A stretch of 64,000 bases of DNA from an uncultured Clostridia bacterium (lineage in GTDB: Bacteria > Bacillota > Clostridia > Christensenellales > UBA1242), in NCBI GenBank assembly GCA_947591785.1, contig CANQDK010000001.1, forward strand, positions 1 through 64,000. The letters are read 5' to 3'. Below, one piece after another: positions 2,753 to 24,853 of this stretch. Every line of letters begins with the position of its first letter. Positions within the stretch are counted from its first letter, which is position 1. The position numbers and the translations under genes are program-made. The notes below the pieces were generated by a model. That model saw only the letters and a list, made by a program, of their open reading frames with translations, had not been told where the DNA came from and ran no database searches.

Positions 2753-2843
2753 TGGCGGAAACGGTGGGATTCGAACCCACGTGCCGATTTCTCGACAACC
2801 GCATTTCGAGTGCGGCTCGGTGCGACCTCTTCGATACGTTTCC
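2753..2843 (-). tRNA. tRNA-Ser(CGA)
   Basis: Minus strand GGAAACG...CCGCA-CTCGAAA-TGCGG...GGTTCGAATCC...CGTTTCCGCCA; long variable arm, anticodon CGA, encoded CCA. Confidence 0.93.
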
Positions 2844-2979
2844 AATTCTTCTTATATCTTAGCATTTTTTAATTTTTTTTGCAACATTTATTTATACTTC
2901 TCTTTTTCTTGCTTTAAAATAATTTTGAAAAAAATTGTAAAATTTTGAAAAGTTATTTGTGAATTTTTTTATTTTATGC

Positions 2980-2985
2980 TATAAT
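2980..2985 (+). promoter_or_regulatory. Extended -10 promoter (TGCTATAAT) upstream of Spo0A_C-like gene
   Basis: TATAAT preceded by TGC, ~24 nt upstream of the ATG at 3009, with GAGGAG SD. Confidence 0.5.
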
Positions 2986-3008
2986 TTGTCTAAAAAGAGG
3001 AGTGTGTT

Positions 3009-3383
3009 ATGGATAAAACAGAAAAAGAAGTTAAATTATTTCTTTTAAGAGTGGGGATTAAATGTGACCATGTGGGTTACACATACTTGGAAAAAATTAT
3101 CTTAAATTGTATTAAAGACCCAACTCTCTTTAAAAATCTTAAAGAAGTTTACTTTCGTATCGCCGAGGAGTATCATGAAAAGAACCCTCTTAGAGTTGAG
3201 GCAAATATGAGTAATGCGATTAATTTTGCATTCAAAAATAAAAAATTGGAGGGATTGAATAAGCTGTTTGGTGTCAAAATGGTTGATAGTTCTCATAAGC
3301 CAACTTGTGCTGAACTTATTCGTCTTGGAACTGAATACATAAATATGGGGCTTTATAAAAATTTTGTCTGGGAAGAAGCATGA
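3009..3383 (+). CDS. Standalone Spo0A C-terminal (effector) domain-like DNA-binding protein
   Basis: 'LLRVGIKCDHVGYTYLEKIILNCIKDPTLF..LKEVYFRIAEEYHEKNPLRVEANMSNAINFAF...LNKLFGVKM...KPTCAELI' matches the Spo0A_C pattern; no receiver domain. Confidence 0.75.
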   Translation: MDKTEKEVKLFLLRVGIKCDHVGYTYLEKIILNCIKDPTLFKNLKEVYFRIAEEYHEKNPLRVEANMSNAINFAFKNKKLEGLNKLFGVKMVDSSHKPTCAELIRLGTEYINMGLYKNFVWEEA

Positions 3384-3551
3384 TAAAACTGAAATATGAA
3401 AATTATACTATAATTTAATTTCATAATCTTCTCTTTTCAAAAATTCTATTGATATTTTCAAATTCTTTTTTATTTCTTTTGTAGCAAAAATTGTAGAGAT
3501 TACTTTTTTCGTTAAAAAAATGACAAATAAATTTTGTCATTTCAATTTCTT

Positions 3552-3626
3552 TGGCAGGGGTGGCAGGATTTGAACCTACGAATGCAAGAATCAAAATCTT
3601 GTGCCTTACCACTTGGCGACACCCCT
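3552..3626 (-). tRNA. tRNA-Gln(TTG)
   Basis: AGGGGTGTCGCCAAGTGGTAAGGCACAAGATTTTGATTCTTGCATTCGTAGGTTCAAATCCTGCCACCCCTGCCA, anticodon TTG. Confidence 0.93.
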
Positions 3627-3737
3627 TTATCATATTGCTTAGAGGTTTTTCAAATTTTTAATCTGCTGTGGCTTGACTGGAATTTGTGTTTTTTTAATTG
3701 AAAATAAGCATCGTTACTTAAATTTCTTCGCTTAATG

Positions 3738-3792
3738 CTGGGACTTGTCCCAGGTTCGCTTGCCTACGGCAAGACAAAATTTTCAATTTTGT
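3738..3792. repeat. Three consecutive perfect inverted repeats (stem-loops)
   Basis: CTGGGAC-TT-GTCCCAG (3738-3753), CTTGCC-TAC-GGCAAG (3759-3773), ACAAAATT-TTC-AATTTTGT (3774-3792). Confidence 0.8.
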
Positions 3793-3826
3793 AATCACGG
3801 GCAAATGTTATGCAGGTTTTGTCTGC

Positions 3827-3902
3827 TGGTGGCTCGCCCGGGATTCGAACCCGGGACCCCTTGATTAAAAGTCAAGTGCTCTACCGACTGAGCTAGCGAA
3901 CC
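3827..3902 (-). tRNA. tRNA-Lys(TTT)
   Basis: GGTTCGCTAGCTCAGTCGGTAGAGCACTTGACTTTTAATCAAGGGGTCCCGGGTTCGAATCCCGGGCGAGCCACCA. Confidence 0.95.
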
Positions 3903-3916
3903 ATATTTATTTAATT

Positions 3917-3992
3917 TGGCAGGGGTGGTAGGATTCGAACCTACGCAATGTTGGAATCAGAATCCAATGCCTTACCACTTGGCGACACCCCT
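3917..3992 (-). tRNA. tRNA-Gln(CTG)
   Basis: AGGGGTGTCGCCAAGTGGTAAGGCATTGGATTCTGATTCCAA...CCACCCCTGCCA, anticodon CTG. Confidence 0.93.
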
Positions 3993-4017
3993 TAATCCGC
4001 AAAAGCGGAATATTAAG

Positions 4018-4094
4018 TGGGGTGATCTAAGGGGGTCGAACCCTTGACCTCCAGAGCCACAATCTGGCGCTCTACCAACTGAGCTAAGACCACC
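4018..4094 (-). tRNA. tRNA-His(GTG)
   Basis: GGTGGTCTTAGCTCAGTTGGTAGAGCGCCAGATTGTGGCTCTGG...AGATCACCCCA with extra 5' G(-1). Confidence 0.95.
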
Positions 4095-4099
4095 ACATT

Positions 4100-4176
<77 letters not shown>

Positions 4177-4179
4177 AGG

Positions 4180-4253
4180 TGGAGCAGGTGAAGGGAATCG
4201 GACCCTCGCAACCAGCTTGGAAGGCTAGTGTTCTACCACTGAACTACACCTGC
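4180..4253 (-). tRNA. tRNA-Gly(TCC)
   Basis: GCAGGTGTAGTTCAGTGGTAGAACACTAGCCTTCCAAGCTGG...CACCTGCTCCA. Confidence 0.95.
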
Positions 4254-9878: not shown

Positions 9879-9907
9879 TTGACAGTTACAGAAAATTGCG
9901 GTATAAT
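9879..9907 (+). promoter_or_regulatory. Consensus sigmaA promoter
   Basis: TTGACA - 17 nt - TATAAT exactly, 27 nt upstream of the ATG at 9935. Confidence 0.85.
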
Positions 9908-9934
9908 ATGGACATCATAAGCGGAGGTGGTTAT

Positions 9935-12904
9935 ATGAAAATTGAAAAGGAATTTTTGGAACCTAAGGAAATTATTGAACTAATGCAAAATCCTGCAAGA
10001 GAGGATGTTGTTGATTTCGCTGTTCTTGGTGATGATAAAGTTTTGATTTTTGTTAAAGATGATGAAACAGGAGAAACCTGTGCGTTCTTTAAGAAAAGCA
10101 GCAAGGACAAATGCCTTTTTGTAAGAAAAATTACTGACGAAGGGACAAAGAAGGACGGAAGAGTTTGGTTCTCAAATGACAGAATTGCAAAGGCAACAAA
10201 AAATCCATCTTATATTACCAATGCTGAACTTGTTCAATTCTTAGGAAATGAAAAACTAAAAGAATGGAGAGCAAAAGATGGCTTGCTCACATTACCACAA
10301 TTTGGAAGACAAATTGGAATGGTGCAAAAAAGATTAGATAGTTTAAAATCAAGAAATTTTCATAATGAGGAGGGAAATGGAATGGTAGAAGTAAAAGAAG
10401 ATTTTAATGGTAATGGAAGAAGTATAGCAGCACCTGTTCGCCAAAGAGTTAATGATGGTGTTGTTGTTCAATACAATCCTGTAGGTTTTGTGTTTGGAGC
10501 AAGAAAGAGAGTTGACGCACAAATCGATGCTATTGTCAACAATTTGTTGTCAAACAGAGAAAAGAATGGAGATTCTTCAAAAAAATTGACAGAAGAACAA
10601 GTTTTGTTTATTGCAAGCAAGTCAGTTAGAGAAGTTATCAATCAAACTAAAAACGGAGAAGAAAAACGTGTTTTGAGTGCCAACATCGAAGTTTTGAAAG
10701 AATATGCAGAACAAAAACTTAGAGGTGAAAAAGTTAAACCTGCACCTGCTGTCAAACAAGAAAAAGGACTTGAAACAATTATTGGTGCTGTTAATCATTT
10801 GATTACTCCAGATTTTAATTTGAAATTTGCAGAATCAAAAAATGGTGGAGAAACTGTTTATGCACTTGTTTACGAAGATGGAAAAACAAGCAAAAATGAA
10901 CTCCGTCTTCCACTTGGAGGAAAAATAGGAACTCCAGACAAGAAAAATGGAACTCGCACAGTTGCTATTGACGACATTAAAAATGTTAAAGAAGTTTATT
11001 TAAAACTCGGTTTGATTGATGAATATTCAGAAGCAGTTGTTGACTATATTATGAATTCAAATCTCTCAAAAAGAAAGTCAAAATTGAGTGAAGAAGAAAG
11101 AAATTATGTTCTTCATTTTGTAAAAGAAACAATTCAAGGAAAAACAGTTACTGTTGACGATGCAGCAATCTTGAGAGAAGATGAATTAATCAAAGAAGCT
11201 TTTGAAAGTCCAGAATGGATTAAAAGAGAAGAAATTAAGAAGATTGTTCAAAAATTGTCAAAGGTTTCAACTTATGAAGCTCGTGCTAAACAAGCAATTG
11301 AGCTTGCTGGTAGGTTTATTAAAGATGACCCTTCTTTAAGAGGAAAAAATGAAAGTGGCAAACTGAATCAAAGAGAAAAAGCTCTTACAAGTTGGACCAA
11401 TTATTTCTTGAAAGAAGCTCAAAAAGTTAATCCTCTTTACGAAACTGCTTTAGGAGATATTATTCCAAAGAAAACTGCTGAACAATTGAAGGCAGAACAA
11501 GAAGCTAGACTGATGGAAGAAATAAAAAAAGAAAAAGATAAGAAGAGACAAGAAGAAAATAAAAAGAGCCAGGAAGAAGAAAAAAATAGAAAAGCTGCAA
11601 AACGTAAGGCTATAATTAAAAAAGTTGCAACTATTGGTCTTGCAATTGTTGGAGCAGGAGTTTTGGTCGCAGGTGTTCTCGGTGTTGTCCCAAGACCTAA
11701 TGAAACTGAGGCTGCAAAAAATTCTGCAAAAACACTTGCTCAAGGAACAAAAGTTACTGCTGTTGCAGATGAAAATTATAATTTGCAATCTTTAAAAGCA
11801 CCAATTATGAGCAAAAGTGAAGTTGCATCTTATGAACAACAAAATAAGGTTGTTGGTTATATGCGTGCTAATAGAGATTATGCTCCATCAGAAGTTGAAG
11901 CTTATGCTCAACAATTGGCTGTTTCTGCAGCAATGGCAACGGCTGATAAAGCAAATTTAAAAGATGCAAATGGTGAGGTAACGGTTGCTTATGCAACAAC
12001 AGATGGAAAATATAGTTATGATGCAATGAGAAAAGAACTTTTAGGCAATGGTTATACAGTTGATGATACTCAAAACTTCATGTCAACTTACGCTGATAAC
12101 TTTACTTCAACTTATAATCAGTTTGCTAAAAATTTTGATTTAGGTGGACAAACAAAACCTGATGATAATCCACAAAAACCAAGTGATGATCAACCACAAA
12201 ACCCAAGTGATGACAAACCACAAAATCCAGACGATGACAAACCAACAAAACCAACCGAAACTGATATAGAACTTAATGGTGAGATTGCAAAAGGTATTTA
12301 TACTGAAGCTATTCAAAAATATGACCCAATGTTTAGTTGTAAAGATGTAATTATTGATGGTGACACAGTTTATGTTCGTGGAGAGAGTGTTTTACTTGAT
12401 GGAACAGAAGCTGATATGCTCTACAGCATGAATATTGAAGAACTTGGCTCTATCAAAACAGAAGATGCTTTGAGACAAAAAGTTGAAGAAATTTCTGCTA
12501 AAGAAATAGGTGAAACAAGAGCTATTAGTGCTGATTATTATATGAATAGACAAAAAGGATTCAGTGCTAAAACTGTTGAAAGATTCCAAAATGATGAAAC
12601 TTTGCCAGAATATTATGTTCTTGACAATGAAACAATGGAAACAACTTCAACCAAAGGGCAACCAGGTGTAAAAGTTTCTTATGTAAAAATTACTAATGGT
12701 GAAAAAGTTGAAAATGTTGATGGCGGAACTGTATATGGTGACAAAGAAAAGACAAACTTTGAAGGTAGAGTTGCTTGTTCAATACTTAAAGATGCTTGGG
12801 GAGAAAAATTTGGAGCTCCTTCTGCATTTGTGATTGTAGATCCACAAATCAGTGGAAATGATGTTCATAAGGACCCAATAAAGGAAGAGGACCGCATTAA
12901 ATAA
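9935..12904 (+). CDS. Large single-TM protein of unknown function (cytoplasmic N-domain, KE-rich linker, TM, extracytoplasmic domain with Asp/Pro/Gln repeat linker)
   Basis: GGAGG SD before ATG 9935; TM 'ATIGLAIVGAGVLVAGVLGVV' preceded by 'KKEKDKKRQEENKKSQEEEKNRKAAKRK'; no family recognised. Confidence 0.8.
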   Translation: MKIEKEFLEPKEIIELMQNPAREDVVDFAVLGDDKVLIFVKDDETGETCAFFKKSSKDKCLFVRKITDEGTKKDGRVWFSNDRIAKATKNPSYITNAELVQFLGNEKLKEWRAKDGLLTLPQFGRQIGMVQKRLDSLKSRNFHNEEGNGMVEVKEDFNGNGRSIAAPVRQRVNDGVVVQYNPVGFVFGARKRVDAQIDAIVNNLLSNREKNGDSSKKLTEEQVLFIASKSVREVINQTKNGEEKRVLSANIEVLKEYAEQKLRGEKVKPAPAVKQEKGLETIIGAVNHLITPDFNLKFAESKNGGETVYALVYEDGKTSKNELRLPLGGKIGTPDKKNGTRTVAIDDIKNVKEVYLKLGLIDEYSEAVVDYIMNSNLSKRKSKLSEEERNYVLHFVKETIQGKTVTVDDAAILREDELIKEAFESPEWIKREEIKKIVQKLSKVSTYEARAKQAIELAGRFIKDDPSLRGKNESGKLNQREKALTSWTNYFLKEAQKVNPLYETALGDIIPKKTAEQLKAEQEARLMEEIKKEKDKKRQEENKKSQEEEKNRKAAKRKAIIKKVATIGLAIVGAGVLVAGVLGVVPRPNETEAAKNSAKTLAQGTKVTAVADENYNLQSLKAPIMSKSEVASYEQQNKVVGYMRANRDYAPSEVEAYAQQLAVSAAMATADKANLKDANGEVTVAYATTDGKYSYDAMRKELLGNGYTVDDTQNFMSTYADNFTSTYNQFAKNFDLGGQTKPDDNPQKPSDDQPQNPSDDKPQNPDDDKPTKPTETDIELNGEIAKGIYTEAIQKYDPMFSCKDVIIDGDTVYVRGESVLLDGTEADMLYSMNIEELGSIKTEDALRQKVEEISAKEIGETRAISADYYMNRQKGFSAKTVERFQNDETLPEYYVLDNETMETTSTKGQPGVKVSYVKITNGEKVENVDGGTVYGDKEKTNFEGRVACSILKDAWGEKFGAPSAFVIVDPQISGNDVHKDPIKEEDRIK
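12170..12265 (+). repeat. Four ~24-bp tandem repeats encoding PQxPSDDx-type linker
   Basis: PQKPSDDQ/PQNPSDDK/PQNPDDDK/PTKPTETD. Confidence 0.75.
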
Positions 12905-13239: not shown

Positions 13240-14181
13240 TTAGAGAACTTCAATATAGATTGTTCCTATGTATTTTTCATTTATATAAAGTTGAATTTTT
13301 CCAGAACTTGCTGCAGAAATTTGAAAATTATTGTTAAAGATGCCTACAACTTTCTTTGCTATAATGTTTGTATCAGGAGTCATATCGATTTCTTCGTAGT
13401 TGTTGTCAACAAAAATATGAATAAAACAAATTTCTCCAGATTTTAATTTGATTGTGTTTTTAACAATCTCTGCATTACCATTAACTATTTCAATCGTAAA
13501 GATGGTAGAATTTTCTTCTTCTGGTGTCTTTGATTGTTCATTTTCATTTGGATTTTGTGAGTCGTGCTGTTTTTGAGAATCGTCTGGTTCTTCTGGGGTT
13601 GTGGATTGGTTGTCATCAGATTCAGAATTTAATGGAGGATTTTCAGTTGTGTTGTCATCATCTTTGTTATCTTTATCATCTTGATTTTTAGGATTCTCTA
13701 AACCGTCTGAAGACTGATTTTGTTCCTTATCCTTATTTTCAGGTTCACGTAAGTTTTTATCATCTTCTTGTGAATCATTCTCATCTTCTTGTGGAGAAGT
13801 TGGTTTGTTTTCGGGATTAGGATTTGTATTGTCAGGGCTTTCTGTTTCGTTTGTTGCTAAGACTGTGACAACACATTCACTTTCCGCAACTTGTTTATTG
13901 TAGTGAGCAATAAGTGTGACTTTTGTGCTTCCAACAGTAAGTGGTTGAATTTTTGCACCATTTAAAGAAATGATTTCGGGATTTTCAATTTTAAATTCAA
14001 CATTAGCAAAAGCAATTGAAACCGAATAATCAATTGACTTATTTGTTTCATCATTATAAACAGTTAACGAATCTTGTGCTTTGATTGTTAATTTTTCTTC
14101 TTTATTTAAAATACAAACTGTTGTGATTGTGACAATCGCAATTAAAGTTAATGAACATAATATTTTCCAAAAATTTTTCAT
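13240..14181 (-). CDS. Exported/membrane-anchored protein with Ig-like domain and long Asp/Asn/Pro/Glu-rich linker
   Basis: N-term TM 'FWKILCSLTLIAIVTITTVCIL', Big-like 'GSTKVTLIAHYNKQVAESECVVTVLA', long D/N/P/E-rich low-complexity stretch. Start set to MKNFWK. Confidence 0.7.
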   Translation of the reverse strand: MKNFWKILCSLTLIAIVTITTVCILNKEEKLTIKAQDSLTVYNDETNKSIDYSVSIAFANVEFKIENPEIISLNGAKIQPLTVGSTKVTLIAHYNKQVAESECVVTVLATNETESPDNTNPNPENKPTSPQEDENDSQEDDKNLREPENKDKEQNQSSDGLENPKNQDDKDNKDDDNTTENPPLNSESDDNQSTTPEEPDDSQKQHDSQNPNENEQSKTPEEENSTIFTIEIVNGNAEIVKNTIKLKSGEICFIHIFVDNNYEEIDMTPDTNIIAKKVVGIFNNNFQISAASSGKIQLYINEKYIGTIYIEVL

Positions 14182-14466
14182 AATGGAATTATAACATAAA
14201 ATTTGTCGAAATAAAGAATATTTTAATAATAAATAAAAAATATTAAATAATTTTTGTTTTAAAAGAAAAAAATGACGCCAAAGTGACATCAAAGTTTTGG
14301 ATTATTTAAATAAAAAATAATAACTTTATTATTCTTTCTAGTAGAAAAATAGCAACTTTATTTCTCTTTCTTTAGGTTTATGTGATATAATTATAACAAA
14401 GTTGAACATTTATTTTTATATAAAGAAATTCAATAATTTTATTTTTTTTGAAAAATTGAGGCTAAA

Positions 14467-15829: not shown

Positions 15830-15858
15830 TTGACTTTTCTTCTCTTATGTGTTATTAT
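15830..15858 (+). promoter_or_regulatory. SigmaA-type promoter, probably of the 316-aa/2550-aa module
   Basis: TTGACT - 17 nt - TATTAT. Confidence 0.6.
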
Positions 15859-16128
15859 CTATATAGAATTTTTCTTTGCTTATTGCCTAATTTGATTTGC
15901 ATACATGAATAAAGGAAAATGAAAGTAGTAAAGTTCGTCCAATTTTATTGGTTTTGATATTCTTATTTGATATTCCGTAATTGATAGTAAAAAAATTGAA
16001 ATTCGCACTTTTATTTAGTAACTCAAATTTTGTTAAATAAAAGTTTTCTAATATTTTGTATTTTGCCTAAATGCTTAAAAATGAATTCTTAATCTGGTGG
16101 CATAAAAATTTTAATTTGGAGTTGCCTT

Positions 16129-17079
16129 GTGACATTTAATTTAAGAAAAATAATGCAGATATTTATAATTTTTTTAGTCGCACTTGTGACTGGTATTTCT
16201 GTTGGAAAAATTTATGTTGACAACCTTGAAGCAATCACTGTGATTGAAGGTGGAGTTGATTCGGTTAAAGAAAAAGATGAGGTGGTTCAAGAACTTGTTA
16301 ACAGTGTTCAGGGAAAAACTGTTGATAAATGCACTTTCTTAAATGCTGTGGAAATTTATTTAATAGCAGAACACAAATTTTATAATGCACCAGAATTTTA
16401 CAAAATTATGACTGGAGTTGTTACTGCTGATGCTGGTGTTACAAAAGTCAATCAAATTATGAAGGGTGAGCGTTTGAAAAAAGATGGAAAACTTTATTAC
16501 AACAAATTGAGTCCATCTACAAGTTCTCTTGCTCCACAAATTTGTTCTCGTTTTATTTACGAATACGATTCTGACCATGTTGATGTTTATCCTAATGGGA
16601 CATTTGCTGTTAGTTCTCCTGCCAAAGACTTAAAAGGTGTTTTTAAGGAAGAAGATAAGCAGGTTTATGACCTTGAAAAATATAAGGAAACATTTAATAC
16701 TGAGCCAACAACAGCCCTTTCCTATATTATTTCATCAGTTAGTTGTCCAAAAGGAAATTATACATCAATTAAAAACAATGGTAACGACACTTTCACTTTT
16801 ACAATGACTTTTGATGCAAAGCATACTGCATACGCTGGCTTGATTTATGCTTATGAAATTGCTTTTTCATCAGGAAAAGGACAACCAAAGTGGGTTTCTC
16901 TTCAAATGGATGTTACTGTTGATAAAGACTTTAATTTTGTTTCAATAAAGTATGACGAAATTTATAAAATGGATTCTGGCGTTATTGGATATATTCCTGT
17001 TCACGATTTATTTGAAGAATATATGTATTTTGGAGATAAAATTCCTTCAGTTGAAGAAATTGTTGGGGAGGTGGCTTGA
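16129..17079 (+). CDS. Membrane-anchored extracytoplasmic protein of unknown function
   Basis: GTG start, N-terminal TM 'IFIIFLVALVTGISVGKIYV'; stop overlaps next start (ATGA-type coupling). No family recognised. Confidence 0.75.
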   Translation: MTFNLRKIMQIFIIFLVALVTGISVGKIYVDNLEAITVIEGGVDSVKEKDEVVQELVNSVQGKTVDKCTFLNAVEIYLIAEHKFYNAPEFYKIMTGVVTADAGVTKVNQIMKGERLKKDGKLYYNKLSPSTSSLAPQICSRFIYEYDSDHVDVYPNGTFAVSSPAKDLKGVFKEEDKQVYDLEKYKETFNTEPTTALSYIISSVSCPKGNYTSIKNNGNDTFTFTMTFDAKHTAYAGLIYAYEIAFSSGKGQPKWVSLQMDVTVDKDFNFVSIKYDEIYKMDSGVIGYIPVHDLFEEYMYFGDKIPSVEEIVGEVA

Positions 17080-20000
17080 TGATTGAGCGTGACATTGAAA
17101 GAGCAAAAACACTTTTTCCAAAGATGTTTAGAACTTTTGCAACATACGTGATTATGACACTTCTAGTCTTCTTTGGCTATGTTTTGATTTTTGGTGGACC
17201 AAAAATAAATATTATTAGAATTGGCGAAGATGATGCAGGAGCAGAAGAAGAAAACTATTTTGGAGATTTTGTTCGAAATTTGACCTCACTTGAAAATATC
17301 AAGGGAAACGATGTCAATATTGTTCTTAAAACTGCCGATGAAAAAATTGATTTGTCGGTTCAGGGTGACTTTTGTTATGACAAGGCGACAGGTTTGGCTC
17401 TTGATTTGGACCTTGCATATAATGGACAAATGTTTGATGTTCAGGCAACATACCTTTCTCCAAACCTTTTTTTGACAGTTGATGGCACAACTTATCTTTT
17501 TGATACATCAAAGGTGAATGTTGAGCTTCCTGAAACTGAAATGGAATTTGATTTTTCAAAAGTTTTAAACTTTGTGACACAAACCTTGGGGATTGATGTT
17601 GATAAATATATAGATTCACTTGGAGACCTTATTGGAGTTGACCTTAGAAATTTCGACCCTAATGAAATTATGAGTGTGCTTCAAATCACTACCACTGCGA
17701 ATGAAGAAACAGGGGATTATAATTTCCGTATTCAACTGGGAGAACATATCGATGCAACTATTTATTGCGATAATGACTTCAATATCACAAAAGTAACAAT
17801 GGAAAAAATCCATCTTGAAAATAATTTTATCCAACTTGATGTTCCTTTTATAAGTATGAACAAAGAAGAAAACACTGTCACGTATGAAAGAACAAACGAT
17901 GAAGTGGATTTGACAGGATTGGGAATTTTTGTAGGTTATGCTCAAAATACATTCCAAAACAATTTTGTCAATATAAAATTGAATGTTGATGGCGTTGAGG
18001 GTGCTCCTTATGGTGCAGATGTTAACGTTGACCTTGAAAACAACATCTTCAAATTTTCAACAGAATATCAAGGAATGGATGTTGAGGCAATTTATGCAAA
18101 TGAAAATATCTATCTTAATGTGTTTGCAAAAGAGGGTGTTGATTCTGGGGCTGACGGATTAAAGGTTAAAATTCATGCAAAAGATTTTGACACTTGGAAA
18201 GCTAAAATTGAAAAATTGCTTCTAACACAAACAGGCAAGGATTTTAAGGGATTCTTTGAACAATGGAAACAAGAATTTTCAAGTAAGCATCCAGAACTTA
18301 ATCTTGACGAAATGACAACACAAGAAATTTTGATGAAAATTCTTGCAGGATTTTTTGAAAATGCGGAGAGTTTCGATACCTATCTTCCACAAAGCACACG
18401 TCTTGAAGAGAATCGATACTTGCTTGGCTGGAATTGTGGGGCAACATTGACTTTTGAGGCAGAAAAAGATGAACAAGAAAAGGAAAATTTGAAAAAGATT
18501 GACTTTGTCTATGGTGATGTGAAAGCATCTGCTGAATTTGAAATTGTTGGCACAGGATTGAGTGTCGAAGATGCAGAATTCTATGAACTTTCAAATCTTC
18601 TTCCTGTTTTAGATGTTGTGGATGGAATTTTGGCAGCAAAGCAGTTGGGTGGAGATATTTCTTTGACTGTTGAAGGACAAAAGATTTCTGGCAATTTTGT
18701 CTTGAATTTTGAAAATAACATTGTGGCAAGGGTGGAACTTGAAAGCGACATCTTTGTGCAAGAAATTGATGGGGAAACACAAAAACAAAAAGTTGTGATT
18801 GTTCTCAGTGGCCGTGATGTTGCTGTGACGATTGGAGATATTGCCATAAAGGGCAGTTTAGATGCTATTGAAGAATATGAAGCAAGGATTATCACTCTTC
18901 TTGGGATTCAAAAAGATGTAACAGAAAGTTTGCCAAAAAATGAAGAAGAAAAAGACACAGCTCATAAAATATCTGAAGTAATCAAGAAAGTTTGTGACAT
19001 TTTGCAAAAATTCTCTTTGGGTGAGGAAAGAGATGCAAGCAACAATTTGACCGCATTGGCTGTGGTGAAATATCTTTCAACTCCACAAATTTTTGGAAAA
19101 GTTTCAATTTGTGATGATGGAAGAATTTGTGTTTCACTTGGTGATGCGAGTCAAGGTAATGGCGACCTTGAGATACCGGAAGAGAAGAAGTATGACCTTG
19201 TTTTGAAATTTACTTCAAATTCTGATGAAATTCAATCTTCTATTGATGGAGAGGACCTTTTGGAAGTCTTGGAAAAAGCACAAAATATGAAGGAATATTT
19301 CCTTGCTGGACAATATGCTTTCAGACTTGACGCACAGTTTGATGGTTTCACTGTTTCTGCAAAAGTGGAAATTGAAAGGCCTGTCACACTAGTGCAGAAT
19401 GCTGAGGAAAATCTTGAAAGTGCGACAAGTGGCATAAAGGAAGTAGAAGAAGGAAAAGCAGACGGCTTGACAGTTGTTGTCGGTGACATATATATTGGAA
19501 AGACAGATGCCGCAGGGTTGAGTGGTGAAGGAATTGAGCCAAATGTCAACCTCACAATCAGATTTCAAGATGGCATTCTGTTTGTGGACTATGGCGAAAA
19601 CAAAATCAAATTTGTTGGCACATCTGCTGACGGCATTTTGAACAAGATTTTGGAAATTTTGGAAGCCAATTTTGCTGAGCAACTTGATGCCGAGCAAACT
19701 GTTGCAGATGCGGACAAAGGGCAAGACAGTGAAAAGCCTGCTTTGTCTGACCAACAAAAAGAGCAACTGAAAAACAAATTTGTTGAGGTTTTAACGACTT
19801 TGTTTGGCGAGGATTTGACAACAAAAACTCTGTCAGAACTTTTGAATATGTTGGATGTTTCGTTGAGTGGAACAACAGACGATATTATTTTTGATGTTGA
19901 CTTCAAGAATGTTGTTGAAGGGGTTGAAAAAGGTATTTCTGCGAAAGCACAAGTTGTGTTTGAGGATCAAAATATTAAGAATATTCAACTTGCACTTGAC

Positions 20001-23000
20001 GATTTCAAAGGGCTGAAAATCAACCTTGATGTTTTGCCATTTGAACTTACAAAAGATGTGAAAGCAGAAGAATATTATGACATTCTTGCAAAACAGACGG
20101 GAAAACTGACACTTGAATACAACTATGAAGTCGAAACGATTGAAGAAGAACAGACGAAGAAAGTTCCAGAAAAATTGGAAATTGAGGCTGATGTTGAAAT
20201 TGACCTTTGTGATCAGATATATCTCAGAATCTCCACAACCGTGCTTGGTGAAGAAGTTGAGATTTTGATTAACAACAACATTGTTGGTGTCAGAGTTGGA
20301 GAGATCTCTCTTGAAACCGATTTAAACAATGCAAAAGAATTGTTTGATTATGTCAAGGAATTGTTTGCATTGACAATTGAAGGCACTGAAGTTCTTGGCG
20401 GACAAGGTTTGAAAGATGTTGACATTGATAAGTTGTTTGAAAAGCTGGAAACAATTGACTTTGCTCAAATGTTTGAAAAACTCAAAAACTTTGATTTTAC
20501 AGGAAATCTCTTTGATTTTGATGGAGATGGAATAAACAATCTGACAATTTCTGGAAAGGAAATTTCATTCAACTTTGTTGAAGATATCAGCAAAATGGCG
20601 GAAGCAGAAGAGCAAGCACCTTTGAAAGAAGAAGTTGCTGGCAAGACCGCATTAGACAAAGAAAAAGAAACAAAGAATTTCTCTGTCAACCTTGCTTTGA
20701 GCACACAAGTTGAGAAAGAATTTGAGAAGGTTGAGCATCTTGCAAATGTAAAAGATTTGAAGGGTGACCTGCCAAAGATTAAGAACTTGATTGACTATTT
20801 CTACCGAAAGGCATTTGAATTTAAGTTTGGCATCAACTATAATGGGCTTGATGTTTCAGGCACATTGAAATATCTCAAAGGCAGCGAAACATCAAAAGAC
20901 GAACTTGAAATTGTGCTGAACAACCTTTTTGAGAATGGCAGTGTCAACAAGGTGGAAGGTGGCAAAGATTTGGTTGTCAGACTGCACAACGATGTTATGT
21001 ATGTTGGCTATGGCAATATGAAAGTGCAAGTCCCTGTTGAGAAGAAAGAGGGTGCAAACACATTTGAAAATCTGAAAGCAACCCTTGAAAAACTTTTGAA
21101 TGATGGCTATGGTGTTCGTTTGCAACTGGGTGTGTTTGAGAAGTTTTTGAAGATGCTTGACACCTTCAGTTTGAAGGACTATTTCAACAAGACCAAAATT
21201 GACATCAATCGAAGTGAATATGCAATTGAAGGCAGCAAAGATGGGGCAAAAGGTGACATATTCACGATTGGCATATATGAGCAATTTGAAGTTATGAAGC
21301 CAACAAAACTCTTTGATGTTGAGATAAAATTTGACCAAAATGGACAGCTCAAAACTGCAAACATTTTGGTTCCAGAGGTTGTGACGGTTGAAGGTGGCAC
21401 AAAAGAAGAGCCTGTAGTGAAAGCAACTGTTGAATTTATGCTTGTTGAAGAATCCACAATCCCTGCATTTGACCCAACCGAGTTTAGCACTGACAACTAT
21501 AAATCCAATATTTTGGATGGATTGTTTGACAGTTTGAGATATGATGATGGCGTTTATGCCTTCTCAAGTGACCTTGCAGTGCGTTATGGTATCAACGATT
21601 TCTATGGCGACCTAACAGGATTGCTTGTTCCATACGAAACTGTTGTTGACGAAAAACCTGTCACAAAACTTCGTCCAGCGTTGTCGCTATACACCTCTTC
21701 GCTTGGGCTTGACACATTCATCTATTTGATTGACGATATGCTCTACATCGACATTCAAGGTTTGCAAATCAAAGCACCTGCAAGCATTGAGAGCATAAAC
21801 GAAATTTTGAATTTCATCAAACAAGAACTTGGAATCGATGTCAACAGTATGTTGAATAAGGAAAAAGAAACAACCGACCATGCCACAGGGGAAACAACAG
21901 AAGAAACGGGCGAAGCATCAGCAGTGGAAATTGTTTCAACCGACACACAAACAGAGGCTGAATTGCAAGACACATTGTCACAAGATGGCTCTCTTGATGC
22001 CCTTGCCGAAACCTTTAAGGCTCTGATTCCTGCACTCGACAACATCTATGCACAGTGGATAAAATTGGAAGAGTCGATTGCAAGCGGCGATGGTGCGTCT
22101 GTTGAGTTGATGAAAGACAACAATGTTTGCTATGGCATTCAGGTTGAGTTTAAGGACCGCCGAGCAGCCAAAGGCGAGACGAAGGAAGATATTTTGGAAT
22201 ATAAGAAGGACTCATATTTCTCAGACATCATATTGCAACTCTATATTCAAGACTATATCGCCGAGAACGCAGACAGCGGAATGCTTATTCCAACAAAACT
22301 TGTTCTTGGTGCAAATATTCACGATCCGAACACAAAGGCTCATGATGTGGCATATTACAAAGACCATTTGCTGAAAGCAGAGAATGGCACATCAGACACG
22401 ATTATGGAGTTTGACATAACCAAAGGCTTGAACTTTGCTGTTTATCTGACCAACATTCAAGTGGGCGTTGACACGCAGCACACGGAAAGATTTGTTGGTG
22501 GAACGGATGAATTGAAACAACAAGAGGTTGCACAGACCTATCAAATTGCCACAAAGGATGGTGGCAAAACCGCTCTGCAAGATTTCAATGACTATCACGA
22601 TGTTTTGCAATTTGCAGCCACGGCATATTCTTGGGCAACGGGCTTCCACTATGACCTCAATCTTGACGGAAGGATTGAAGGCGAGAAGGTGAATGAGGAT
22701 GAAACCATAACATCCACACAAACAGCAATAAAAGGTGGCATCAAAGTTTCGGTTGAGCAAGAAGAAATTTTGACAGAAGAAGATGAAACGGGGAAAATAA
22801 CTGAAAAGACAAAAGGTTTCTCGCTTGACGGCAAGAGGTTGAATGTTCAGGGCTCAGACCTTGACATAACTCAAAGCGAAAAGTCTCAAAATGCCCAAGA
22901 TTGGACACAAACAATGAGACATCTCATCAACTTGTTCTATTCCACAGATCAAGATGGGTTGTATATCACCTATTCTCACGATGGTCCAAAAAATCAAAAT

Positions 23001-24728
23001 ATTGCTGCTGGAAACAAAATCCGTGCAAGGATAAACAATGTTCATATGAGCGATTTGATTTCGTTCATAGTTGGCTTTATCGGTCTTGACCTTGACCCAT
23101 CGTTATTGAAGGGCTGGGAACTTCAAAAAAGCACAACCGATTTCAGATTTGTTCAATCGCTTATGGGTAAAACGGAAGTCAACGCAGATGGCACAATTTC
23201 CAAGGTTGACTCAATTTTGAGTGAGATAACGGCCTACACCAAACTTCTCAAGAGTATTGTTTTTGAAAAGACAGAAGAAACCGAAGATGGACACAACTTG
23301 AAACTGACAATCACAGTGGACATGGGCTATCTTGACGAGATGCAGGAAACTTCGGGCGAGGCGGAAGAGCAAGAGCCAAAACCACACACTGAAAAAATTG
23401 GAAAAATCAGCCTGAATGTCAATATGACGAAAGACGGATTTGAGAATGTTGGAACAGAAGAGGCTCCAATTGAAAAGCAGAAATACAAGGCTCAACTCAA
23501 TCAAATTCTTGTTGAAAATCTTGAAATTTCTGGAATGACAATAAACTTCACAGTCAATGTCAATGAGTATATTTTGAATGGAGCAGAAGGTGTTGAAGGT
23601 GGTGCTCACTATGAAACAGGCACAAGAAAAGTCCTTGATGCAGATGGCAAACCTGTGCAAAACGAAGATGGAAGTGAAAAGACGGAAGAGTATGAATATA
23701 TTGTCGGCACTGACAAAAACTTCACTTACGACATCAATCAGCAACATATGGTTCTTGGCAGCCTGCCACAATTCCTCAACATCGCAATCGACACTGTCAA
23801 CGCAAAAGAATTTTTCTATCAGGGTGAGATAAATGCGAAGGTTATTCTTTTCTCAGATATTAAGATTGATGTCAGCCTTTATGCAAAAATTCAAGAACCT
23901 CAAACGCCAGAAGAAAAAACGAAATATTATGTTTTGGCTGAAATCACGCCACACGGGTCAAGCACTGAGTTTAAAGGCAATGCAAACCATTTGAAATCTA
24001 TAGTTGAAGTGCGAGAAAAAGATAGTGGTGACGGAATGCAAATCAGTGTAAATAACTATTATACTGAGAATGAATACTATTACGAGTTTCCACTTGTTCA
24101 CACAAGAGATAAATATGTCTATGGTTCTGTGACTTATGGACTTGACGAACTTTCGGATATCAATAAATTGAAAGATTTGATATACGCAATATTGATGCCA
24201 AGCGATTTCCTTAAAAATACAATTGAGGAAGTTCTATCAAAAATAACTTTCCCAACACCAACCATTGAAAAAGTCATCACCGACTTCACATCAGTTGAAC
24301 AGGACGGAAAGAATGTTTACACAATGCAGATTGACGGAAATCATCTTATTGGGCAAAATGATCCAAAAACATTTGGATTGCAGTTGATTGCTGGTGACAA
24401 GATGAAATGCGAGGTTACAAATCAAGAACTTGTTGATAAATATAACACAGGTTTGGATGAAAAGAAGAAAGTCAAATCCTACATCCGTGAGCACGAATTT
24501 ATTGAAGAGGTGAAGATTGATGAGGCAAATCCTTTTGACATTGTTGGGATAATTCAATTGTCAATGAAATTGGCTTCAATATCAGGAGACTTCACTTTCA
24601 CTCCAATCACAGTGAATGATGTGACACTTGGGGCTGACCCAAACAACAAGGATGTTGGAAGAACTGTTCACAGCAATCACCAGTATAGACTTGACTATTT
24701 GAACAGCATCGGAACAATTATTGGTTGA
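17076..24728 (+). CDS. Giant (2550 aa) membrane-anchored beta-rich repeat protein of unknown function
   Basis: Single uninterrupted ORF, N-term TM 'ATYVIMTLLVFFGYVLIFGG', recurring strand blocks such as 'GILFVDYGENKIKFVG', 'DVMYVGYGNMKVQV', 'DMLYIDIQGLQIKAP'. Confidence 0.85.
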   Translation: MMIERDIERAKTLFPKMFRTFATYVIMTLLVFFGYVLIFGGPKINIIRIGEDDAGAEEENYFGDFVRNLTSLENIKGNDVNIVLKTADEKIDLSVQGDFCYDKATGLALDLDLAYNGQMFDVQATYLSPNLFLTVDGTTYLFDTSKVNVELPETEMEFDFSKVLNFVTQTLGIDVDKYIDSLGDLIGVDLRNFDPNEIMSVLQITTTANEETGDYNFRIQLGEHIDATIYCDNDFNITKVTMEKIHLENNFIQLDVPFISMNKEENTVTYERTNDEVDLTGLGIFVGYAQNTFQNNFVNIKLNVDGVEGAPYGADVNVDLENNIFKFSTEYQGMDVEAIYANENIYLNVFAKEGVDSGADGLKVKIHAKDFDTWKAKIEKLLLTQTGKDFKGFFEQWKQEFSSKHPELNLDEMTTQEILMKILAGFFENAESFDTYLPQSTRLEENRYLLGWNCGATLTFEAEKDEQEKENLKKIDFVYGDVKASAEFEIVGTGLSVEDAEFYELSNLLPVLDVVDGILAAKQLGGDISLTVEGQKISGNFVLNFENNIVARVELESDIFVQEIDGETQKQKVVIVLSGRDVAVTIGDIAIKGSLDAIEEYEARIITLLGIQKDVTESLPKNEEEKDTAHKISEVIKKVCDILQKFSLGEERDASNNLTALAVVKYLSTPQIFGKVSICDDGRICVSLGDASQGNGDLEIPEEKKYDLVLKFTSNSDEIQSSIDGEDLLEVLEKAQNMKEYFLAGQYAFRLDAQFDGFTVSAKVEIERPVTLVQNAEENLESATSGIKEVEEGKADGLTVVVGDIYIGKTDAAGLSGEGIEPNVNLTIRFQDGILFVDYGENKIKFVGTSADGILNKILEILEANFAEQLDAEQTVADADKGQDSEKPALSDQQKEQLKNKFVEVLTTLFGEDLTTKTLSELLNMLDVSLSGTTDDIIFDVDFKNVVEGVEKGISAKAQVVFEDQNIKNIQLALDDFKGLKINLDVLPFELTKDVKAEEYYDILAKQTGKLTLEYNYEVETIEEEQTKKVPEKLEIEADVEIDLCDQIYLRISTTVLGEEVEILINNNIVGVRVGEISLETDLNNAKELFDYVKELFALTIEGTEVLGGQGLKDVDIDKLFEKLETIDFAQMFEKLKNFDFTGNLFDFDGDGINNLTISGKEISFNFVEDISKMAEAEEQAPLKEEVAGKTALDKEKETKNFSVNLALSTQVEKEFEKVEHLANVKDLKGDLPKIKNLIDYFYRKAFEFKFGINYNGLDVSGTLKYLKGSETSKDELEIVLNNLFENGSVNKVEGGKDLVVRLHNDVMYVGYGNMKVQVPVEKKEGANTFENLKATLEKLLNDGYGVRLQLGVFEKFLKMLDTFSLKDYFNKTKIDINRSEYAIEGSKDGAKGDIFTIGIYEQFEVMKPTKLFDVEIKFDQNGQLKTANILVPEVVTVEGGTKEEPVVKATVEFMLVEESTIPAFDPTEFSTDNYKSNILDGLFDSLRYDDGVYAFSSDLAVRYGINDFYGDLTGLLVPYETVVDEKPVTKLRPALSLYTSSLGLDTFIYLIDDMLYIDIQGLQIKAPASIESINEILNFIKQELGIDVNSMLNKEKETTDHATGETTEETGEASAVEIVSTDTQTEAELQDTLSQDGSLDALAETFKALIPALDNIYAQWIKLEESIASGDGASVELMKDNNVCYGIQVEFKDRRAAKGETKEDILEYKKDSYFSDIILQLYIQDYIAENADSGMLIPTKLVLGANIHDPNTKAHDVAYYKDHLLKAENGTSDTIMEFDITKGLNFAVYLTNIQVGVDTQHTERFVGGTDELKQQEVAQTYQIATKDGGKTALQDFNDYHDVLQFAATAYSWATGFHYDLNLDGRIEGEKVNEDETITSTQTAIKGGIKVSVEQEEILTEEDETGKITEKTKGFSLDGKRLNVQGSDLDITQSEKSQNAQDWTQTMRHLINLFYSTDQDGLYITYSHDGPKNQNIAAGNKIRARINNVHMSDLISFIVGFIGLDLDPSLLKGWELQKSTTDFRFVQSLMGKTEVNADGTISKVDSILSEITAYTKLLKSIVFEKTEETEDGHNLKLTITVDMGYLDEMQETSGEAEEQEPKPHTEKIGKISLNVNMTKDGFENVGTEEAPIEKQKYKAQLNQILVENLEISGMTINFTVNVNEYILNGAEGVEGGAHYETGTRKVLDADGKPVQNEDGSEKTEEYEYIVGTDKNFTYDINQQHMVLGSLPQFLNIAIDTVNAKEFFYQGEINAKVILFSDIKIDVSLYAKIQEPQTPEEKTKYYVLAEITPHGSSTEFKGNANHLKSIVEVREKDSGDGMQISVNNYYTENEYYYEFPLVHTRDKYVYGSVTYGLDELSDINKLKDLIYAILMPSDFLKNTIEEVLSKITFPTPTIEKVITDFTSVEQDGKNVYTMQIDGNHLIGQNDPKTFGLQLIAGDKMKCEVTNQELVDKYNTGLDEKKKVKSYIREHEFIEEVKIDEANPFDIVGIIQLSMKLASISGDFTFTPITVNDVTLGADPNNKDVGRTVHSNHQYRLDYLNSIGTIIG

Positions 24729-24770
24729 TGCAAAAAAAAGAAGGAAAACAATCCTTCTTTTTTTTGCATC
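24727..24770. terminator. Perfect 19-bp hairpin bidirectional terminator
   Basis: GATGCAAAAAAAAGAAGGA-AAACAA-TCCTTCTTTTTTTTGCATC between convergent genes. Confidence 0.9.
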
Positions 24771-24853
24771 AAAAATTCATGGTTTTGGTTACAAAATTTT
24801 ATTATTTTTATTTCTTTTTACAGAAATCTTTTGTAAAAAAAGAAATGGCGTTT

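Follow-up and report, generated by a model that had tools for sequence, protein, structure and literature searches.

The question raised by this locus is what role two overlapping genes, one coding for a small protein and the other for a giant repeat protein, may share in the cell that carries them. The DNA analysed (hereafter, the window) comprises 64,000 nucleotides from an uncultured Clostridia bacterium, whose genome of 1.2 Mb is 98% complete and holds the pair as one copy.

Results

Organization of the locus and expression signals

The small partner gene (16129-17079, forward strand) starts with GTG, has GGAG 7 nt upstream, and encodes 316 amino acids with one N-terminal anchor and a predicted LolA-like domain. 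The giant repeat gene (17079-24728, forward strand) encodes 2549 amino acids, again with one N-terminal anchor. A preliminary description of this DNA had reported two overlapping reading frames; both are present, but the start of the giant had to be corrected, and with it the length of 2550 residues given there. The stop codon of the small gene and the start codon of the giant overlap as TGATG, and a ribosome-binding site, GGAGG (17067-17071, forward strand), is located 7 nt before the ATG at 17079, so that this codon is most likely a better start for the giant than 17076. Both frames are kept in dozens of species and are therefore not chance open reading frames.

A promoter had also been proposed at 15830. 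The sequence TTGACT-17-TATTAT, with TG ahead of the -10 element, is indeed found there (15830-15858, forward strand; consensus only, 10 of 12 matches), but since similar matches are common in the window (79 observed vs. 41.6 expected from shuffles), its role as promoter of the pair is only plausible. The putative transcript would begin with a leader of about 263 nt (15859-16128, forward strand), which showed no Rfam family in a search of the window that returned tRNAs as sole matches; a cluster of seven tRNA genes lies at 2756-4253 on the reverse strand. Downstream of the giant, the perfect hairpin noticed earlier was found at 24726-24771 (no strand assigned), with a 20-bp stem and a 6-nt loop. 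It contains the stop codon of the giant, is T-rich on both strands and separates the giant from the convergent metG gene, being common to both genes; it falls outside the set of GC-scored sites.

Protein features and sequence searches

As anticipated, the two proteins each carry one hydrophobic segment near the N-terminus, corresponding to a helix at residues 5-31 in the model of the small protein and to residues 20-38 in the giant, and an extracytoplasmic location is predicted for both. In neither window protein does a cysteine end this segment as in a lipobox, and the lipoprotein form was seen in at least one relative, the fused 2177-aa protein of L039. The giant is acidic along its whole length, with about 45 D+E vs. 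23 K+R per 250 amino acids. A match to a characterised family was looked for in Pfam, NCBIfam and PDB sequences, using the single proteins, alignments and repeat units, and none of these searches gave a meaningful one; LolA-type Pfam matches were obtained for 0 of 12 small proteins and 0 of 50 repeat units. Weak keratin matches were discarded, as they were located on a helical stretch. These results support the view, already expressed in the preliminary description, that the pair represents an undescribed family at the sequence level.

Linkage of the two genes within the genus

The profile of the small protein matched 91 of the 112 genomes of the genus, once in each. Among 37 distinct loci of the genus, obtained after duplicates between searches were taken out by hand, 36 carry a large reading frame directly 3' of the small gene and on the same strand, the spacing varying from a 62 nt overlap to a 43 nt gap and the large frame, where complete, from 736 to 3024 amino acids. 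Two settings are frequent: the pair is found either flanked by metG and an RNA m5U-methyltransferase gene, as at the window locus, or beside rplM-rpsI and MreB-like/MinD genes, the MreB-like/MinD setting occurring in a large part of the genus; a few other settings exist. No transporter consistently adjoins the pair. The persistence of the pair in differing surroundings speaks for a shared role.

Unlinked homologues were looked for as well, and G104 was the only genome of the genus holding both genes apart, on different contigs (L119, 14776-15951, and L139, 3752-10369), with the small gene keeping its MinD-side setting. The small gene is missing from 21 genomes of the genus, two of which (G050 and G071) hold a giant; these were not accepted as partnerless giants, because the 5' side of the giant ends at a contig end. 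The other genomes of the genus lacking the small gene contain no confirmed repeat protein, a weak repeat match in G088 having been set aside for want of support from the other repeat model. The presence and absence of the two genes thus agree in the genus.

Distribution and fusions beyond the genus

The small domain was found in 67 of 297 sampled genomes of the order, including seven of the genus. In most of the loci examined from other families, it makes up the N-terminus of a single protein of great length, 1221-5498 amino acids as far as the stretches reach, whose remainder bears the same repeats as the window giant. Taken together, the adjacency in 36 of 37 loci, these natural fusions and the shared absence support the two-gene module that had been proposed from the window. 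The small domain stands alone in L100, L102, L105, L113 and L115, so that outside the genus it can occur without a giant. The fused giants of L111 and L112, which run into the ends of the stretches examined, reach at least about 5500 amino acids, with up to 20 repeat units.

The two-gene form appears again in G459, a member of another order of the class, as proteins of 297 and 950 amino acids encoded 16 nt apart, the larger of which has three repeat units. In this genome (L117, 10000-12412) the pair is followed by genes for an HGSNAT-type acyltransferase and an AMP-binding enzyme, neighbors that possibly hint at a lipid or acyl link in this one genome. Outside the class only marginal matches were obtained. 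A different arrangement was observed in G299 (L101, 724-11237), where a small-type domain is C-terminal in a 1582-aa protein that overlaps a 1923-aa reading frame, and neither of these two proteins contains the repeat.

Tandem repeats of the giant

A single iterated repeat model of 173 amino acids finds eight units in the window giant and 3-20 units in its relatives, fused giants included. To control for drift during iteration, all proteins of the window's branch were left out and the model was trained again; this independent model recovered seven units at 14.3-37.6 bits, while the background did not exceed 7.8 bits in 200 shuffled sequences and was 6.2 bits for the reversed protein. On the forward strand, the seven units are unit 1 (residues 63-253, 17265-17837; E 3.6e-17, independent model 14.3 bits), unit 2 (residues 284-467, 17928-18479; E 7e-23, 35.7 bits), unit 3 (residues 506-689, 18594-19145; E 6e-20, 35.2 bits), unit 4 (residues 730-971, 19266-19991; E 1e-14, 25.5 bits), unit 5 (residues 996-1171, 20064-20591; E 8e-21, 35.3 bits), unit 6 (residues 1231-1378, 20769-21212; E 2e-17, 37.6 bits) and unit 7 (residues 1493-1608, 21555-21902; E 6e-15, 27.5 bits), the last of which lies within the block of the giant that is best conserved among relatives. 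A divergent unit 8 (residues 1841-2078, 22599-23312, forward strand; E 2e-4) had no significance with the independent model. The C-terminal region (residues 2213-2549, 23715-24725, forward strand) is conserved in close relatives and was not detected as a repeat. When the giant was aligned with relatives of 1226-3024 amino acids, the length differences corresponded to whole blocks missing or duplicated, and recent repeat duplications were recognized in L048 and L055. Close relatives of the giant are only 22-33% identical.

Predicted fold

AlphaFold2 modeled the small protein with a pLDDT of 86.7 and a pTM of 0.82, and residues 1-760 of the giant with a pLDDT of 65.7 and a pTM of 0.50; the units of the latter model are therefore partly usable, while the packing of its domains is not. 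In this model, unit 2 consists of a helix, six strands, helices and five strands, an order that recurs along residues 1-760. In Foldseek, LolA was the top specific match of both the small protein (E 1.3e-6, probability 1.00) and the giant 1-760 (E 2.8e-5, probability 1.00), followed by LolB, LprG, MucB and DUF1849 with probabilities of 0.8-1.00. The small protein also matched LolB and Csa1B (4big, E 5e-3), and the giant MucB and LprG (3mh8, probability 1.00, TM 0.47). As the TM-scores to solved LolA-type proteins are 0.29-0.47, all below 0.5 (0.41-0.47 by target length), both proteins are predicted to belong to the LolA/LolB/LprG/MucB fold group rather than to be a close match of any of its members. 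The earlier guess of a LolA- or LppX-like fold is thus borne out by the predicted structures. When the HMM of the small domain was compared with that of the repeat, no sequence homology was detectable, so that the two would be connected by fold only. A viral structure library yielded no informative match.

Membranes and fatty acid genes of the host cell

Omp85 (PF01103) was found in 0 of 41 genomes, 25 of them from the genus, with a control that detected it in 7 of 14 known genomes. An outer membrane is therefore unlikely, and the host cell is probably bounded by a single membrane. The fatty-acid condensing enzyme FabF was absent from all 112 genomes of the genus (control, 13 of 14), and a FakA-type fatty-acid kinase (YloV) was present in 111 of the 112. 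Judging by its gene content, the genus apparently cannot synthesize fatty acids, and the lack of FabF together with the presence of the kinase points to the use of fatty acids from outside, as has been reported for the gut order RF39 (PMC6784871).

When FabF was tested against the small domain over the 297 genomes of the order, it exceeded the cut-off in 7 of 67 carriers vs. 47 of 230 non-carriers (p 0.07, ignoring kinship), and about 19 members of the genus have neither FabF nor the pair. Across the order, carrying the small domain and lacking FabF show no clear association.

Discussion

The operon layout, the repeats, the linkage, the fusions and the shared absence constitute the observed part of the explanation that we favor, to which we give a probability of about 0.4: the two proteins would form one cell-surface machine, composed of an outward array of hydrophobic-ligand-binding modules and a membrane-proximal partner. 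Anchored in the cytoplasmic membrane by its N-terminus, the giant would extend outward from the cell as some eight domains in a row, each with the predicted LolA-like half-barrel fold, and the small protein would be a single LolA-like domain close to the membrane that cooperates with it. We infer that the domains may hold in their hollow the acyl chains of lipids, fatty acids or lipoproteins, that the array may capture such cargo or hand it through the wall, and that the small protein may load or unload it at the membrane.

A genus without FabF and with FakA shows the pattern of a fatty-acid scavenger, and we hypothesize that this pattern counts for a lipid-handling role; because the trend across the order is weak (p 0.07, ignoring kinship), the link to scavenging is put forward as a hypothesis only. 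Several results weigh against the favored explanation: the TM-scores to solved LolA-type proteins do not exceed 0.47, the array model has a pTM of 0.50, profile comparison did not join the small domain to the repeat, LolA-type Pfam families matched none of the units, and no transporter regularly adjoins the pair. A lipid role is further weakened because LolA folds need not carry lipid, as illustrated by GerS of Clostridioides difficile, which has a LolA-like fold and acts as an amidase activator (PMC8496864). The broader proposal, in which tandem LolA-like arrays and their partner would constitute a single-membrane lipid-handling system of gut bacteria without fatty-acid synthesis, is advanced with considerable doubt.

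It is possible, if on balance unlikely, that the giant is a surface stalk or adhesin, whose repeats would act as a stiff spacer, variable in length, that holds a binding tip at a distance from the cell; in that case the LolA-like fold would be a mere building block, and the small protein would aid export or anchoring. The variation in repeat number from 3 to 20, with the recent duplications in L048 and L055, the fast divergence to 22-33% identity among close relatives and the acidic character of the giant are all compatible with such a function, as are typical surface-protein features of some relatives, two of which terminate in Listeria-Bacteroides repeats (Flg_new) and a fused one of which has a weak BspA-type leucine-rich match (LRR_5). 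Nevertheless, Pfam recognized no adhesive or surface-repeat domain in the window giant, and no tip domain is recognised in it or in the close branch; with its anchor at the N-terminus, in the membrane, the giant has a free C-terminus and lacks a wall anchor; and adhesins are not usually retained so strictly, across two orders, together with a small LolA-like partner.

The LolA-like domains may instead bind and control a partner protein outside the membrane, as regulators of cell-wall enzymes or of signaling, which we regard as rather improbable. GerS pairs with the CwlD amidase, and MucB with the MucA anti-sigma factor. A monoderm precedent is provided by GerS, an amidase activator of LolA-like fold (PMC8496864), MucB structures are among the Foldseek matches of the giant, and the pair lies beside MreB-like and MinD genes in a large part of the genus. 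Yet the pair also occurs in other settings, that of the window locus among them, no amidase or anti-sigma gene consistently adjoins it, and about eight repeats of variable number far exceed what a regulator would need. An AsmA/TamB-type bridge between two membranes, the other guess of the preliminary description, shares with the giant the plan of one N-terminal anchor followed by very long strand-rich repeats, but it is very improbable and was rejected on the predicted fold and the missing Omp85 (0 of 41 genomes), since the window proteins have no AsmA/TamB/Chorein-type Pfam match, the fold is absent from the Foldseek matches and the giant appears built of separate alpha/beta units and not of one continuous strand groove.

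The proposed surface machine of LolA-like modules can be compared with known systems. The LolA-type fold is chiefly familiar from single-domain proteins that ferry lipoproteins to the outer membrane. Both window proteins resemble the LolA/LolB carriers of diderm bacteria in predicted fold (Foldseek probability 1.00 to LolA), but LolA itself acts for an outer membrane as one soluble domain in the periplasm, whereas here the proteins are tethered, the giant is a tandem array, Omp85 was not found in the genomes searched, and no sequence match to LolA/LolB was obtained from the pair, with TM-scores below 0.5. Being tethered, without Omp85 and without sequence match, the pair falls outside the LolABCDE pathway; at most, it would work like a LolA-type carrier. 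Among the mycobacterial lipoproteins of LprG/LppX type, LprG is a fold match of the giant and is likewise membrane-tethered; these are lipid-anchored single domains, in contrast to the about eight repeats and the transmembrane anchor without lipobox predicted here. GerS and MucB/RseB carry a LolA-like fold outside the membrane, as is predicted for the pair, and GerS comes from a related single-membrane lineage, but both are regulators of one partner and not long arrays, and no sequence relation to the pair was found. The staphylococcal conserved antigen Csa1B (4big), a surface lipoprotein of a single-membrane cell and a fold match of the small protein, stands alone, without link to a repeat giant. 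AsmA/TamB proteins likewise combine one N-terminal anchor with great length, but they have another fold, need two membranes and gave no match here.

A search of the literature, covering sources outside subscription, returned no description of tandem LolA-like giants, and what appears to be new, judging from the models, is the occurrence of long tethered arrays of a known fold group with a dedicated partner: the predicted LolA-type fold would be present about eight times in one tethered protein and up to twenty times in relatives. If the domains bind lipid, cells with a single membrane would have a new means of transporting or gathering greasy molecules, and the supply of membrane lipid in a genus where FabF was found in 0 of 112 genomes would become easier to understand. 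With a partnership this clear and with fusions available in nature, the question lends itself to direct tests.

Two further proteins are encoded near the pair in the window, one of 1002 amino acids (9896-12904, forward strand) and one of 350 amino acids (13240-14292, reverse strand). Both have acidic low-complexity stretches and a hydrophobic segment, without a convincing Pfam match, and reading frames resembling them occupy the same position in several relatives (L034, L046, L047 and L048).
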